From an uncultured Eubacteriaceae bacterium (GTDB lineage Bacteria > Bacillota > Clostridia > Eubacteriales > Eubacteriaceae): a stretch of 64,000 bases of DNA. Position 1 is the stretch's first letter, and each line of letters opens with the position of its first letter. Under the pieces are notes generated by a model that made no database searches, was not told the origin of the DNA, and saw only the letters and a program-made list of their open reading frames with translations. A program made the position numbers and the translations under genes. Positions 30,202 to 56,757 of the stretch are shown here, piece after piece. The DNA is taken from NCBI GenBank assembly GCA_945867155.1, contig CAMBHL010000006.1, forward strand, positions 62,001 to 126,000, given 5' to 3'.

Positions 30202-31177
30202 TTAACGGTAGGAATTGCCGCCGCAGTTCCACACCCCGTAGCTGCTGCCGGCCCGGAAGGACTGGTACGGGTGGCTGCGCTTGCCCCCCTGCATGCAGTC
30301 GATGACGGCCTGCTTCACGTAGTCCGGGTATTTGCCGCCGAGATATTTCTTGTAGGGACCGTCGAGGTAGGCTGCGAACTGACCCGGGGCCTTGAGCACC
30401 GACACCGCATCTTTGCCGCCCCATTTGCCCGAATCCACCCGGTTCATGACACAGGAGATCACAGCCAGGGCGCCGTCATAGCTCGAGTTGCATTCCGCCG
30501 CCACCACCGCGCAGATGAAGTCGAGCTGATCCCCGGGGTCGGCGGTGCTGCCGCTCGTGGTGCTGGCCGCCGAAGACGTATTCTGAGCCGCGTAAGCTTC
30601 CAGCTGTTTCTGTTCTTCGGCGAGTTTCTGGTTGTAGGTGTTCTGCTGTTCCTGAACCTTCTGCTTTTCTTCGCTGAGCTGCTGCTTCTGAGCATTCAAA
30701 TCCGCCTGGGTCGCCTTCACCTGGGATTCAAGCTTTTCGACGTTGGCCACGGTTTTCTGGTCAGCGCTGTTCACCGCCTTGATCTGCGCCGCCTTCGTCA
30801 GGGCTTCGGTGAGGTTTTTCGACGAAAACACTGCGCTCAAAAAGCCGTCAGTGTTGAACATGTACATGACCCGTGCCCGTTCGCCCATGTTCTTTTTCGC
30901 CGTTTTCAAATCGGCCTCGGTCTGGGAGAGGGTCTGTTCGTTGTTTGAAATCTTCTGGTTGATCTGGTTGATCTGATTGTCGATCTGGGTCATCTGTTCC
31001 GCCGCCTTCGTCACCTGGTTATTGAGCTCGGTGATGGACGCGCTGAGATCCGACTGGCTTGCGGCGTGCGCCGTGGCCATCGGCAGGGCCGCGGCCAATA
31101 TCATGAGCGCCGCCAAAATCCCAGCGGCGATTCTAAAATTTTTGTTTTGGTTTAAAATGTTTAAAATAATGGGTCAC
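30202..31177 (-). CDS. SleB-type cell wall hydrolase with coiled coil, disrupted N terminus
   Basis: The long open frame gives a signal-peptide core (GILAALMILAAALPMATAHA), a coiled coil of about 165 residues like CwlO/PcsB N domains (with RARVMYMFNTDGFLSAVF), a Ser/Thr linker and a SleB/Hydrolase_2 domain (AAECNSSYDGALAVI to VWNCGGNSYR) that cleaves peptidoglycan. In this frame no ATG or GTG supplies a proper basic n-region. A GTG at 31177 in another frame encodes MTHYFKHFKPKQKF, a credible n-region, and ends at UUUUAG, one base out of register. Start choices are therefore GTG plus a +1 shift, an ATT at 31170, or the TTG at 31116. It pairs with a tandem paralogue. Confidence 0.78.
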
Positions 31178-31249
31178 CTCTCTGGCATCGTCCTTTCAGG
31201 ACAATCGTTCTGAATGGTAAAGCATAACACCTTTATCTAAAGCCTATCT

Positions 31250-31288
31250 AAAAAAAGCATTTCAAAATTCGAAGATTTCGAAATGCTT
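31250..31288 (-). terminator. Terminator of the second SleB-like hydrolase
   Basis: Minus-strand GAAGCATTTC pairs with GAAATGCTT through an imperfect inner stem and runs into TTTTTTT. Confidence 0.8.
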
Positions 31289-31309
31289 CAATGCGATTCA
31301 AAAATTAAA

Positions 31310-32197
31310 TTAACGATAGGAGTTGCCGCCGCAGTTCCACACCCCGTAGGTGCTGCCAGAGCGGAAGGACTGGTACGGGTGGCTGCGCTTGCCGCCCATC
31401 ATGCAGTCGATGACGGCCTGCTTCACGTAGTCCGGGTATTTGCCTCCGAGGTATTTCTTATACGGGCCGTCGAGATAGGCCGCGAACTGGCCCGGTGCCT
31501 TGAGCACCGACACCGCGTCTTTGCCGCCCCATTTGCCCGAGTCCACCCGGTTCATGACGCAGGAAATGACGGCGAGGGAACCTTCATAACTCGAGTTGCA
31601 TTCCGCCGCCACGACCGCGCAGATGAAGTCGAGCTGATCCCCCGGGTCCGAGGTGTTGTGGTTGGCCGCGTATTCCTGGAGTTTTTTCTGTTCTTCGGCG
31701 ACCTTGGCGTTGAGCTGGTTCTGCTGTTTGACAAGTTCCTGGCGCTGCTTTTCAATCGAATCCTTGGCGGCCTTCGCCTGGGCTGCCGTTTCGATGTACT
31801 GACTCAGGCGGTCGTTGTCCGCGCGCACGATGTTGTGCATCCCGTCCAGATTGGAGAAGATCTCCCCGATGTTGTCGCTGCCGAAGAGAAACTCCATGTA
31901 GCCGTCATTGCCCATCATGTACATGGCGCGCACCCGCTTGGCCATGGTTTTCCGCTGGGCCTTGAGCTCGGACTTCGCCTGAAGGTACTCGGCCGTCTTG
32001 TCCGCCAGTTCCTGGTTCGTTTCGTTCATCTGAGTCCCGAGCTTCCCGATCTGGTCATTGAGCTGGTTGATCGAGTCCGTGAGGGCCACGAGGTCGACGT
32101 CATCGGCGTGCACCGGCATGCTGATCATGACGAACATCGTAAGCACCGCGAGCAGACAGGCCCCCCATTTGTATTTAAAAAAGTGATGATGCTTCAA
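31310..32197 (-). CDS. SleB-type cell wall hydrolase with coiled coil (paralogue)
   Basis: This 295-residue secreted protein starts at a TTG (MKHHHFFKYKWGAC...) preceded by CAGGAGATTATT. A signal peptide ends near VHA at about 31. A coiled coil (about 35-175) has the CwlO/PcsB-like RVRAMYMMGNDGYMEFLF. The SleB domain (about 178-295) begins DPGDQLDFICAVVAAEC and ends CGGNSYR. This catalytic domain differs from the neighbouring copy at only about six positions, while the coiled coils have diverged strongly. It is likely a peptidoglycan amidase or lytic enzyme acting in the wall during growth or separation. Confidence 0.88.
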   Translation of the reverse strand: MKHHHFFKYKWGACLLAVLTMFVMISMPVHADDVDLVALTDSINQLNDQIGKLGTQMNETNQELADKTAEYLQAKSELKAQRKTMAKRVRAMYMMGNDGYMEFLFGSDNIGEIFSNLDGMHNIVRADNDRLSQYIETAAQAKAAKDSIEKQRQELVKQQNQLNAKVAEEQKKLQEYAANHNTSDPGDQLDFICAVVAAECNSSYEGSLAVISCVMNRVDSGKWGGKDAVSVLKAPGQFAAYLDGPYKKYLGGKYPDYVKQAVIDCMMGGKRSHPYQSFRSGSTYGVWNCGGNSYR

Positions 32198-52378: not shown

Positions 52379-52942
52379 TTACTCCTTTTTTAGGTCTTTC
52401 TCTGACAGTCCCATTGCCTTGGCGACGCGATCCAGCGCTTCGTTGGATTTGCCGCCGCTCTTGCCAAGCGGTGCCGTCGGGTTGTCGATCGGCTCATCTG
52501 CGGTGAATAAGAATTTGGTTTCATCGCTTGCCTTGAGATCATCAAAGGCTTTGGCAATGTCCGCGTCCTGATTCTTAGAGGCTTTCAGCGCGTCTACGTC
52601 CATAAAGGGCATGACGGCTTTTAATGCCCGCGCTCCCGCTTTCTTGGCTGCTGCTGTCATCTTGCCGTTGAACATGACATCTTCCTGAATCTTTGTTTTT
52701 TCCGCTTCTGCCTGTTCGAACTTGGCTTTATAGTCTGCGACTTGTGATTTAATTTCGTCATAGTCCTTAAAGCCGTCAATGGTTTTATTCGCCGTCTTTA
52801 ACTGATCCTTCGTGGTTTCCAGTTCTTTCTGTACGGCTTCGAGATTACCTTTGGCTGCATTCACATCCTTGCCGTTCTCTGCCATGATCTTGTCGATCGC
52901 GTCCTGTTCCAGGCCGAGGCCTTTCAAAAATTCTGTTTTCAT
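52379..52942 (-). CDS. Capsid scaffolding protein (GP20-like)
   Basis: This 187-residue protein begins MKTEFLKGLGLEQDAIDKIM and is dominated by a coiled coil (about 20-95, GNLEAVQKELETTKDQLKT). Its C-terminal part contains FDDLKASDETKFLF and TAPLGKSGGKSNEA. It matches phage minor structural protein GP20, a scaffold. It is encoded directly before the coat gene, as expected. AAAGGATGAACAGAC precedes the ATG. Confidence 0.88.
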   Translation of the reverse strand: MKTEFLKGLGLEQDAIDKIMAENGKDVNAAKGNLEAVQKELETTKDQLKTANKTIDGFKDYDEIKSQVADYKAKFEQAEAEKTKIQEDVMFNGKMTAAAKKAGARALKAVMPFMDVDALKASKNQDADIAKAFDDLKASDETKFLFTADEPIDNPTAPLGKSGGKSNEALDRVAKAMGLSEKDLKKE

Positions 52943-53101
52943 GTCTGTTCATCCTTTCTTTCGCTTTTAGGTTGTTTTAGGGCTGTAACCACGCGCCCTG
53001 CGACGGCACTGTTTTAGGTCTGATGCCGCTGACCAAACAATAAAAAAACGCCTTTCAGCATGGTTATGTTTACTTCTATACCATTTTTCTTACTAAGTTC
53101 C

Positions 53102-53437
53102 TTATCGCCGTGGATCACAATCAAAATAATCTGCCACGTCTTCTAACCCGGCTTGTTTTAAGTACTCATATTCCCGCTCTTTCTTTAGTCGTGTATAATC
53201 TGTGATGGTGTTAAATACCTTATTCTCACGTTTTCTCTCGCAAGACTTTTGATATACATTTTGCCTCTTGAGCTTTTTAACTGTGCGTGGCTTTACGATC
53301 TTTCCTTCATCAAATACATTTTTTAATCGAGTATTGGCTTGTTTCTGCTCTAAAGCATATCCTCTCATGCCATCGGTTAATCCTTTGAACGAAAAACAAC
53401 TCATAGCAGCACAAATTCGGCCTGGGCTCAATGTCAT
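53102..53437 (-). CDS. Unrecognised basic phage protein (accessory block)
   Basis: This 111-residue protein starts MTLSPGRICAAMSCFSFKGL after AAGGAGAAAACACG. The middle is strongly basic (PRTVKKLKRQNVYQKSCERK) with a helical, charged end (TRLKKEREYEYLKQAG). I do not recognise the family. A nucleic-acid-binding role is possible from charge alone. It is the last accessory gene before the scaffold, in a stretch with several terminators and none of the dense overlaps of the structural operon. Confidence 0.6.
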   Translation of the reverse strand: MTLSPGRICAAMSCFSFKGLTDGMRGYALEQKQANTRLKNVFDEGKIVKPRTVKKLKRQNVYQKSCERKRENKVFNTITDYTRLKKEREYEYLKQAGLEDVADYFDCDPRR

Positions 53438-53461
53438 CGTGTTTTCTCCTTATTTGTAAAC

Positions 53462-53486
53462 AATAAAAAAACGCCTTTCAGCGTTG
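53462..53486 (-). terminator. Terminator inside the accessory block
   Basis: Minus-strand AACGC, 6-base loop, GCGTT, then TTTTTTATTG, just after the 33-residue peptide gene. The same TTTTTTT-ended sequence is partly repeated at about 53037-53060 after the next gene. Confidence 0.65.
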
Positions 53487-53493
53487 TGAGATT

Positions 53494-53595
53494 TCAATCT
53501 TTTAATACGGCAATTACGCCAATAATCAGTGCAATAAGCGATTTAATGGCATCAGTCGCTAGAATGGCGCCGACAATTGTAAAGAATAGTTTCAC
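53494..53595 (-). CDS. 33-residue hydrophobic peptide (accessory block)
   Basis: This small ORF starts at a GTG after GAGAGGCGTCT: MKLFFTIVGAILATDAIKSL, then LIALIIGVIAVLKD-type hydrophobic sequence. It is nearly all membrane-spanning with Lys at both ends. It ends at a terminator. It lies 9 bases after the lipoprotein gene and is likely co-transcribed with it. Family unknown; a membrane partner of the lipoprotein is a reasonable guess. Confidence 0.6.
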   Translation of the reverse strand: MKLFFTIVGAILATDAIKSLIALIIGVIAVLKD

Positions 53596-53604
53596 AGACG
53601 CCTC

Positions 53605-54000
53605 TCAATCACTCACGGTCGGCTTATACGGGATCCACAGCTTCGGATTAAAATTGATCTCGTAGTGATACTTACTGACTTCACTTCCTGAAATATCCTC
53701 AACAATGTAAGACATGTTGTCGCTGATTCCGAATAAATGCTTTTTATATTTGCCTTTGCCCGTTTCGACAATGACTTCAAGCTGATTGTCCTCAGTATCT
53801 GCTTTGATGTTCATTTTACCTTCAACGGTATAGAGTGTCTGTCCAGTGATGCAGTCGATCACCGTTAACCGACGATAAATATTAAAGTTTTCAGCTTCCT
53901 GCGTGATGTTGTAATCTGCCCGCTTTGCCTGACGGCAAGCGCACAAAGACACGGCCAGAACCGCTATCAAAGCAAATGATATTATTTTTTTCTTGTTCAT
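53605..54000 (-). CDS. Prophage lipoprotein, beta-sandwich type
   Basis: This 131-residue protein starts MNKKKIISFALIAVLAVSLC, a classic lipoprotein signal whose lipobox is VSLC (Cys20), so it would be anchored on the outside of the membrane. The mature part is beta-rich (RRLTVIDCITGQTLYTVEG, NQLEVIVETGKGKYKKHLF, YIVEDISGSEVSKYHYEINF). Such prophage lipoproteins are known to block superinfection or alter the surface of the lysogen. AAAAGGAGAGGAATT precedes the ATG. Terminators on both sides suggest separate expression in the lysogen. Confidence 0.75.
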   Translation of the reverse strand: MNKKKIISFALIAVLAVSLCACRQAKRADYNITQEAENFNIYRRLTVIDCITGQTLYTVEGKMNIKADTEDNQLEVIVETGKGKYKKHLFGISDNMSYIVEDISGSEVSKYHYEINFNPKLWIPYKPTVSD

Positions 54001-54024
54001 AATTCCTCTCCTTTTCTGGCATAG

Positions 54025-54053
54025 AAAAAGCATCGGTCTCCCGATGCTTTAAA
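54025..54053 (-). terminator. Terminator before the lipoprotein gene
   Basis: Minus-strand AAAGCATCGG, 3-base loop, CCGATGCTTTTTCTAT. It follows the 54-residue zinc-finger-like gene and insulates the lipoprotein gene from it. Confidence 0.8.
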
Positions 54054-54097
54054 GCAGCAACGCCAACAAAAAAGGCGCTCATTGCTGATCGTCTTCG

Positions 54098-54262
54098 TTA
54101 TTTATATTGATCAATGCAATCCGAACAGATATTCTCCATCCAGAAACGTCCCACAATCCCGTGATACACTTCCGCTCGCCGATATGCCTCAAGCCATATG
54201 TACCTATGGCAGTGTGAGCACATTACAGGAAGCAAGGCGAATCGGTTAAATTTCATCTTCAT
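54098..54262 (-). CDS. 54-residue zinc-finger-like phage protein
   Basis: The ORF begins MKMKFNRFALLPVMCSHCHRY and has CSHC near 15-18 and CSDC near 47-50, so two CxxC pairs that could hold zinc. The middle is WLEAYRRAEVYHGIVGRFW. Start could also be the second ATG, two codons later. It lies between terminators in the accessory block. Many phages encode such small Cys-pair proteins of unknown function. Confidence 0.55.
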   Translation of the reverse strand: MKMKFNRFALLPVMCSHCHRYIWLEAYRRAEVYHGIVGRFWMENICSDCIDQYK

Positions 54263-54285
54263 GCTTTTTCCCTATTCCTGACATA

Positions 54286-54312
54286 ACAAAACCCCGCGGT
54301 GTCCGCGAGGCT
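54286..54312 (-). terminator. Terminator after the Tad2-like gene
   Basis: Minus-strand CCTCGCGG, 3-base loop, CCGCGGGG, then TTTTGTT, 30 bases after the stop of the Tad2-like frame. Confidence 0.85.
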
Positions 54313-54341
54313 TATTCGACGTATCTTGATTTATATTTCAT

Positions 54342-54857
54342 TTATTCCACAAACACCCAATCTTCTGCAAGCATATCAGACTGCGAAGCAAGCCATCCGA
54401 TTTGAACACCAGACGTTCCAACAAATGCAATCGCTCCATTTCCAATAGCTTCATGCTCTGGATTCACAATATCTCCATCTGGATTTATATATCTGATGTT
54501 GGTTGCTAATTCAATGTACTGATTCTTGCCATTCCAACCTTTACGTTTAACTTTGAGTCCACGCTTCATATACTTGATTGCATCTCCAAAAGAAAAAGTT
54601 GTCTCTCCACCAAGTACCGGGCAATTCTTTTCATCTGCCACAATCCATTCATCCGACAGCAGTTTCATTATAGTGTACTCTACTCTCTGTGTCTCACGAA
54701 TATCAAGTAATTCACCCTGATCGCCGTCCTGTGGTCTGCACCGAATCATAATCGTTTCTTTCTCTACATCCCAGTATCAGTAACCACCCCACGATGGCAG
54801 CTTTACTTTTGCTCCTTGTTTCATCAATTTAAATGCTTCCTTAAAATTCATTCCCAT
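54342..54857 (-). pseudogene. DUF2829 / Tad2-like anti-Thoeris protein with an in-frame TGA
   Basis: Read through, the frame has two related modules. The first begins MGMNFKEAFKLMKQGAKVKL and stops at TGA (54777-54779), where the motif PSWGGY-stop-YWDVEKETIMI strongly suggests a lost Trp codon. Downstream an ATG at 54749 opens a 135-residue frame, whose last 85 residues are a good DUF2829/Tad2 domain: FGDAIKYMKRGLKVKRKGWNG, then GWLASQSDMLAEDWVFVE. Tad2 proteins bind the cyclic ADP-ribose signal of Thoeris and block that defence. The C-terminal module is intact and may still be made from an internal start, though no good ribosome site is seen there. Confidence 0.8.
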
Positions 54858-54887
54858 ATTTTTATCTTCATTTCTTAAAAATGTGTA

Positions 54888-54920
54888 TAAAAATACCACC
54901 GGTCTCTCGACTGGTGGTAA
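54888..54920 (-). terminator. Terminator after the 58-residue gene
   Basis: Minus-strand TTACCACCAGT pairs with ACCGGTGGTA, followed by TTTTTATAC. It separates the MuF unit from the Tad2-like gene. Confidence 0.85.
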
Positions 54921-55097
54921 CTAAAATCCCCTAATTCCTCCATAAATACAATCTTTGGTCTTGCATTCAACTGCTATAGAATTACCTCTTTTTTCATAAA
55001 TAATCTCATTTCCACAGCGAGGGCAAATTACTTTTTTATCTGGATGGTTCATTTTTTCGTCTAACACCTTATAATCATTCTCATTCATCGTAACCAT
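54921..55097 (-). CDS. 58-residue zinc-ribbon-like protein downstream of MuF
   Basis: The protein starts MVTMNENDYKVLDEKMNH after AAGGAGACTTATTT; it has CPRCGNEIIYEK near 25 and a second pair in ECKTKDCIYGG near 47, a small zinc ribbon. Its start lies 17 bases inside the end of the MuF-like gene, so the two are translationally coupled. Position right after a gene with a swapped C-terminal domain makes it a candidate partner or immunity protein for that domain, but this is inference. Confidence 0.6.
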   Translation of the reverse strand: MVTMNENDYKVLDEKMNHPDKKVICPRCGNEIIYEKRGNSIAVECKTKDCIYGGIRGF

Positions 55098-56757
55098 AAA
55101 TAAGTCTCCTTGCTTTTTTATTGTACCTAACGCTGACTCCGGCTTCTCTCGCCCTATCATACGCATCAAGCATTAACATTCTTCTTTCTTCATCACTTAA
55201 ATTTGGGGCGTTTAATGCAGCACAATAACTTGCTCTAAATTCATCACGCCAATCACCAACTCTAAACTGTGAAGGATGATTTTTATAGTGTCCATAATAT
55301 TCATGTGCAAGCACTGCTTTCGACGATAAAATATCTCTCAAATTATTTGATGATTTGTCCGGAAGTATGTCTCCTCGAATGTTTATTATTTCTTTTCTAT
55401 CTGAAAAACCAGTTTGATTTCCTTGATTGAATCTCAAAATATTCTCTGGTATATTTAGTTCTTTTGCAGCCTTCTTCACGCTTTTAATTTCTTCATCTGA
55501 CAAAATATGGTATGGGCTTGTTCTTAGTCCATTAGCCATACGTCTTTCAGATATATTTCTTGCCTTTATTATACCATTCTTCACTGACTTTGCAACGGTT
55601 TTCAAATTGAGCCCATTATTATATATCCGATCTCTCTGCATCGGCAGACCCATGGTTTTGCTGAACGCTTTGTACTGACTGAACTTGGTTTGGTACTTGA
55701 TGCGCTTGTTCTCGATCAGTTCATCATCAGCGCCGCCTTGTTCCAGAAGTTCAGCGTCGCGCCGGTATTTCCGCATCTGGCGTTCCATGTGCCGCTGTTC
55801 CTGAAGAGCTTCATACTTGTTGTAGCTCTTCCCATTCCATTCGTGCTCTTCGGCGTCTTCCTGGCGGAGGCGTTCCAAGTCCTCGTCGCTGTACCGTCTG
55901 ACCGATACGCCGGGAATAAATGGATCATAGCTGTGATAACAGTTGATGCCGCAGAGCCCTAGAGGATCGCCAAGACCGCAGATGGTTTCCAGTTCGTCTT
56001 TGGTGTAGATGCCGCCCTGCCATTCAGCGTGTTCCGGTCTGGCGCCGCCGTGTGCGGAAACTTCGAAATATTCCGTTCCCAATTCACTTGCGATCTGTTC
56101 CGACATGAAGCGCTGCACCTGGCCGAAGCCGGTCATTAATGCACGCCTGACGGCCACTTCTACCCGGTTGCTCCATCCGCTGGCGTAGTCGATTGTCCGA
56201 AGTCCGCTGCTGGTCATTGTGTTGATCGCCCGCTCCAGAACGGTGTTGTAATCAAAGGCGCCGGTCTGAATGTCAAGCATCGCATTGTCCAGCGTTGTGG
56301 TGTAGAAATCTCTCAAGCTCTGGTAATGCATCCGGCCTGCTGCGGTTTTAGAGGCAAACCCCATTGAACCCGTGATGTTCTGAAACGTGCCTTTGGTCTG
56401 AAGGGTTACGCTCTTGATCAAGCTCTGCAGCTGGCTGTTCTCTTTAAATGGAACTTGCGTGAGCCCTTCGATCTGATAGGCGCGCTTCTGTTTCGTGTAC
56501 TCTGAAAAGGTCGTGTCGGATAAGATGCGCTTTGCTTCTTTTTCGCTGATGCCCATCGCTTCTGCAACCCACTTGTCGATCCGCTTTTCGCTGACGCCAT
56601 ACTGTGCCAGGCGGGACAGCTCCCAGTCGGTGACTTGTGTGGATGCGCCAACTTCTTGAAGACGTGCCACAACGTCGCTCATAATCCGATTTTCAAGATC
56701 TCTAAACGCTTTCTCACTGTTTAGCGTGAGCTTTTCTGTCTGCCCTTGCGTGAGCAT
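55081..56757 (-). CDS. MuF-like minor capsid protein (Phage_min_cap2) with variable C-terminal domain
   Basis: This 558-residue protein has a helical N-terminal half and the minor capsid protein 2/MuF core at about 160-300 (YTTTLDNAMLDIQTGAFDYN, SAHGGARPEHAEWQGGIYT, GINCYHSYDPFIPGVSVR), then a charged helix to about 370. The last 150 residues are a distinct domain coded by AT-richer DNA, with NIRGDILPDKSSNNLRDI and AHEYYGHYKNHP (an HExxxH arrangement), followed by WRDEFRASYCAALNAPN. The core enters the capsid with the portal; MuF proteins often carry C-terminal effector domains delivered with DNA. Confidence 0.85.
   Translation of the reverse strand: MLTQGQTEKLTLNSEKAFRDLENRIMSDVVARLQEVGASTQVTDWELSRLAQYGVSEKRIDKWVAEAMGISEKEAKRILSDTTFSEYTKQKRAYQIEGLTQVPFKENSQLQSLIKSVTLQTKGTFQNITGSMGFASKTAAGRMHYQSLRDFYTTTLDNAMLDIQTGAFDYNTVLERAINTMTSSGLRTIDYASGWSNRVEVAVRRALMTGFGQVQRFMSEQIASELGTEYFEVSAHGGARPEHAEWQGGIYTKDELETICGLGDPLGLCGINCYHSYDPFIPGVSVRRYSDEDLERLRQEDAEEHEWNGKSYNKYEALQEQRHMERQMRKYRRDAELLEQGGADDELIENKRIKYQTKFSQYKAFSKTMGLPMQRDRIYNNGLNLKTVAKSVKNGIIKARNISERRMANGLRTSPYHILSDEEIKSVKKAAKELNIPENILRFNQGNQTGFSDRKEIINIRGDILPDKSSNNLRDILSSKAVLAHEYYGHYKNHPSQFRVGDWRDEFRASYCAALNAPNLSDEERRMLMLDAYDRAREAGVSVRYNKKARRLIYGYDE

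Follow-up and report, generated by a model that had tools for sequence, protein, structure and literature searches.

This locus raises the question of whether a Tad2-like gene that is cut by an in-frame TGA has been lost, is still translated in part or in full, or owes its stop codon to an error. The gene belongs to a prophage and lies in a window of 64,000 nucleotides, which is the whole stretch of DNA analysed, from an uncultured anaerobic Eubacteriaceae bacterium. The frame runs on the minus strand (the preliminary description gave no strand), starts with ATG at 54857 (MGMNF) or 54851 (MNF) and ends with TAA at 54344–54342. It joins two Tad2-like modules, here called the N-module and the C-module, and is cut by TGA at 54779–54777. 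Counted from the second ATG (54851), the protein obtained by reading through the TGA has 169 residues. Coordinates of the features are collected in Table 1.

Table 1. Features of the interrupted Tad2-like gene and its surroundings (positions in the window).
Feature	Position	Strand	Remark
Interrupted two-module Tad2-like gene (PHROG 1048 relative)	54342..54857	−	ATG 54857 or 54851, stop TAA
In-frame TGA	54777..54779	−	Codon 25 from ATG 54851; TGG in 82/82 covering relatives
N-terminal Tad2-like module, residues 1–73	54633..54851	−	Alone Z 8.6 to 9eib_A, 61 residues, rmsd 1.8
C-terminal Tad2 module, residues 84–169, intact	54345..54602	−	PF11195 70.9 bits; Z 12.6 to SPO1 Tad2
135-residue frame after the TGA, from ATG 54749, holding the whole C-module	54342..54749	−	Anti-SD pairing −5.7 kcal/mol, weak
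Stretch in common with the unrelated phage contig L087	54320..54852	−	96.1% DNA identity; gene and ~20 bases after, nothing else
Minor head protein gene (phrog_581), upstream of the cassette	55081..56757	−	
Head scaffolding protein gene (phrog_194), downstream of the cassette	52379..52942	−	
Terminator-like hairpin downstream of the gene	54289..54313	−	
Hairpin and T-run just upstream of the gene	54894..54919	−	Found by eye; missing from the terminator scan list

The motif around the stop is PSWGGY-TGA-YWD, and the expectation that Trp belongs at the TGA was borne out: all 82 fetched relatives that cover the codon have TGG there, namely 41/41 viral loci and 41/41 genome or phage loci. The viral loci come from a contig search that gave 133 relatives, with 41 of the best 80 reaching the codon; a search of bacterial genomes added further relatives, mainly from Lachnospiraceae and other Clostridia. 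Since TGG is present in every covering relative, the change from TGG to TGA is, among these sequences, private to the window copy. The whole-genome sequence, taken from the same assembly, has this TGA as well, and a search of it found no second copy of the gene. Two forms of recoding were rejected. Specifically, TGA recoded as Trp is ruled out by the use of TGA in the window, where it terminates 16 of 49 chosen genes and is internal in none, and selenocysteine is ruled out by the Trp at this codon in relatives. Low-level read-through by tRNA-Trp has to be considered separately, since UGA is the leakiest stop codon and can be misread by this tRNA. With UGA standing at a Trp codon, such misreading would restore the conserved residue and yield some full-length protein. 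We find this very improbable: TGA occurs at the codon in no relative, it is a normal stop in the window, and the ribosome-binding site is weak, pairing with the 16S tail at −3.3 or −4.3 kcal/mol as compared to about −11 in most relatives.

Membership of the C-module in DUF2829/Tad2, as claimed in the preliminary description, agrees with its score of 70.9 bits to Pfam PF11195 (Tad2-like; curated cut-off 25 bits). Its AlphaFold2 model matches SPO1 Tad2 (8wje_A) with Z 12.6 and an rmsd of 3.4 over 80 residues. The further Tad2-like module claimed ahead of it stays below the Pfam cut-off (21.3 bits with the one TGA inside, 22.8 bits alone) but is recognised by its fold: modelled alone, it matches ModTad2 (9eib_A) with Z 8.6 and an rmsd of 1.8 over 61 residues, and its structure list has ten Tad2 entries on top, the first unrelated row being at Z 4.2. 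These single-chain models are confident, with a mean pLDDT of 86.4 for the whole protein and 94.1 for the N-module alone. From the structure matches of the C-module and of the N-module alone it follows that both halves are, as modelled, Tad2-like domains. Profile-profile comparison of the N- and C-module alignments gives a probability of 94.6 (E 7e-8), with the first helix, the conserved Trp and the DxW motif at the end all aligned. The joining of the two modules by read-through, also part of the first account, is seen in a single minus-strand frame whose full product scores 89.5 bits to PF11195 in two matching stretches. Searches of NCBIfam and PADLOC with the protein gave no match.

A double-module Tad2 had been thought unusual, and in this point the preliminary description was mistaken. 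The read-through protein matches PHROG 1048 (E 1e-58), with almost the whole profile covered. When relatives were searched for the full double protein, as had been advised, 81 single frames with N-C architecture were found among the fetched loci, together with 82 of C alone, 4 of N alone and 1 of N-N-C; the set is query-biased and a few of its loci overlap. Most of the N-C relatives belong to phages and prophages whose hosts are Lachnospiraceae and other Clostridia. By these matches the two-module architecture is a large family and an ordinary form in Clostridia phages. The window frame, being broken by the TGA, is not an uninterrupted PHROG 1048 gene; judged by its profile match it is a PHROG 1048 relative by descent and pseudogene-like in form. 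Among the other genomes of the host genus 0/4 have the gene, and a search of the host family returned only two relatives, both of the N-module type. In a prophage from another genus of this family (L169:970-1728) a Tad2-like module is followed by an N-type module, seemingly in reversed order, and the gene directly precedes a scaffold-like gene. Among the papers searched there was no experimental work on two-module Tad2 proteins.

The closest relative of the window gene is the uninterrupted copy in phage contig L087. Outgroup comparison places 3 synonymous and 3 amino-acid changes, besides the stop, on the window side. A few of the changes on this branch are uncommon, e.g. Lys for Asn at residue 66, and as counted they are too few to show decay. 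After the TGA there is neither a second stop nor a frameshift, and the C-module is intact. The dN/dS ratio is about 0.07 between the window copy and more distant relatives and 0.2 against the nearest one; in close pairs the N-module has a median of 0.22 and the C-module one of 0.12. Low dN/dS in both modules argues that the family is under constraint and that full length matters in its other members. Loss recurs in the family, as can be seen from other broken copies: L027 and L102 have TAG at Trp codons, L042 contains a stop, and in L040 the frame is broken. These data bear on the possibility that the TGA arose as an error in sequencing or assembly, in an ordinary two-module Tad2-family gene that is in truth intact. 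The stop is one base off an invariant codon, the frame behind it is undamaged with a fully intact C-module, and there is one assembly only. However, the ribosome-binding site is weak as well, the window branch carries a few more uncommon changes such as the one at residue 66, and the nonsense changes in other members mean that such losses occur. We regard an error as unlikely. Another explanation, in line with the C-terminal product considered in the preliminary description, accepts the stop and has ribosomes restart at ATG 54749; the resulting protein of 135 residues would contain the complete C-terminal Tad2 module and still work as a single-module sponge. This ATG is 27 bases past the TGA with a weak GAGAAAG ahead of it; free-standing single C-modules are common (the 82 fetched frames mentioned above) and SPO1 Tad2 has one module. 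On the other hand, pairing at the restart (−5.7 kcal/mol) is weak, the product would keep about half of the N-module without its first helix, and the N-module is constrained in other members. A productive restart appears rather improbable to us.

The stretch 54320–54852 alone is common to the window and L087, contigs that are otherwise unrelated in that the DNA and the head proteins of the window phage have no match in L087. It follows that the window gene is, as judged by this shared DNA, a single-gene mobile cassette. In both contigs the gene comes after a minor-head-type gene and before scaffold and capsid genes (in L087 judged from translated frames). The same position is found in L088, L091, L094, L105 and L109, judged by the upstream gene, and in other relatives the gene is beside a holin or endolysin gene. 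G+C content of the gene is 41% versus 52% in the window, and a low-G+C stretch from about 52750 to 55750 includes the gene. A sequence resembling the upstream hairpin and T-run also precedes the gene in L005, L012, L016 and L020; this element may travel with the cassette. Near the gene, at 53605–54033, there is a small predicted lipoprotein whose matching PHROG bears the label recombination directionality factor, a doubtful label because a secreted lipoprotein sits in the head-gene region. Elsewhere in the window (30202–32197, minus strand) two adjacent frames each begin with a coiled-coil-like part and are nearly identical in their C-terminal halves (VAAECNSSYDG... motif), as if they had arisen by tandem duplication.

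Genes for integrase, CI-like repressor, exonuclease, terminase, portal, capsid, tail and endolysin are present, and by gene content the prophage looks complete. In its lysogeny region an abortive-infection type gene (phrog_2158; L172:4952-5896) adjoins the repressor. Regarding the host, the preliminary description had suggested a nonsense mutant in a cell that lacks Thoeris and a check for thsA and thsB. The mutant part stands, the TGA being private to this copy. Searches of the host genome for ThsB_TIR, TIR_2 and SMODS gave no match; in the STALD search of the same genome no control matched, and its result carries no weight either way. The host does have a SIR2 protein of 719 residues (L171:1177-3336), related through its N-terminal SIR2 domain to the ThsA and Dsr2 models. 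As a standard ThsA it is ruled out, since only its SIR2 part matches ThsA models, and it is a candidate defence gene. The suggested absence of Thoeris is thus only partly shown; it is likely, not proven.

On balance, this locus probably lost its function recently. It is a copy of an accessory gene that is widespread in Clostridia phages and encodes a two-module Tad2-family protein; as a single-gene cassette, it sits between the genes for the minor head protein and the scaffold in a prophage that looks complete. In Tad2 tetramers, gcADPR is held in pockets formed between the subunits, and a separate site of some Tad2 proteins takes cyclic dinucleotides (review PMC12043709); MoTad2 binds His-ADPR (PMC13299392). 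In intact relatives, the C-module would bind and sequester a nucleotide-type immune signal in the way of single-module Tad2, and the N-module would be a covalently attached second Tad2-like subunit. Two chains could then together make an assembly of four modules resembling the Tad2 tetramer, with each chain supplying two of the four subunits. In the window copy, TGG to TGA at the invariant Trp of the N-module would halt translation after 24 or 26 residues, and the loss would be tolerated because the host offers nothing for this counter-defence gene to act on. Several points were counted against inactivation. The sequence comes from a single assembly, and a miscalled base may account for the TGA. 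No decay is visible after the TGA, which fits a recent loss and also a C-module that is still in use. The host has the SIR2 protein with a ThsA-like N-terminal domain, and no two-module member with shown sponge activity was found.

Comparison of relatives points to exchange within the C-module. L018 and L038 are 99.1% identical before the GWNGK motif, where homology ends. DNA homology stops at the same motif in the pairs L006/L029, L026/L036 and L023/L036, and slightly ahead of it in two further pairs; in some pairs it returns at the closing ASQxDMLxEDW motif or beyond it. Close relatives thus have the N-module in common and different C-module cores, which suggests that the core sets the choice of ligand. 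We tentatively propose a constant N-terminal subunit with an exchangeable C-terminal specificity core that recombination swaps at RKGWNGK, retargeting the sponge to other host signals; the window copy would be one such cassette, silenced or reduced to its C-module. This is possible rather than probable. Two-module Tad2 pairs with a swapped C-module core are natural pairs for telling which part sets ligand choice. The window locus itself is likely an ordinary decayed accessory gene, and the surrounding family is more useful.

Among known PHROG 1048 proteins, gp19 of Ruminococcus phage phiRg507T2_3 (73% identity) and 00011 of Dorea phage DO134P1 (67% identity) have the same N-C order over the full length and a similar size, and both are uninterrupted, unlike the window gene. 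The former is encoded between holin and endolysin, which is different from the window; the latter is in the head-gene region downstream of terminase, like the window gene. Ruminococcus phage RG-TP1 gp24 corresponds to the N-module only (70% identity over 77 residues, without a C-module) and stands before the scaffold gene, as the window gene does. SPO1 Tad2 (gp34.65) shares PF11195 with the window C-module, with 34% identity over 80 residues and Z 12.6, and matches the N-module alone with Z 8.4. SPO1 Tad2, HgmTad2/AcrIIA7, ModTad2 and SptTad2 are single-module proteins, to which the window copy adds an N-module and a stop codon.
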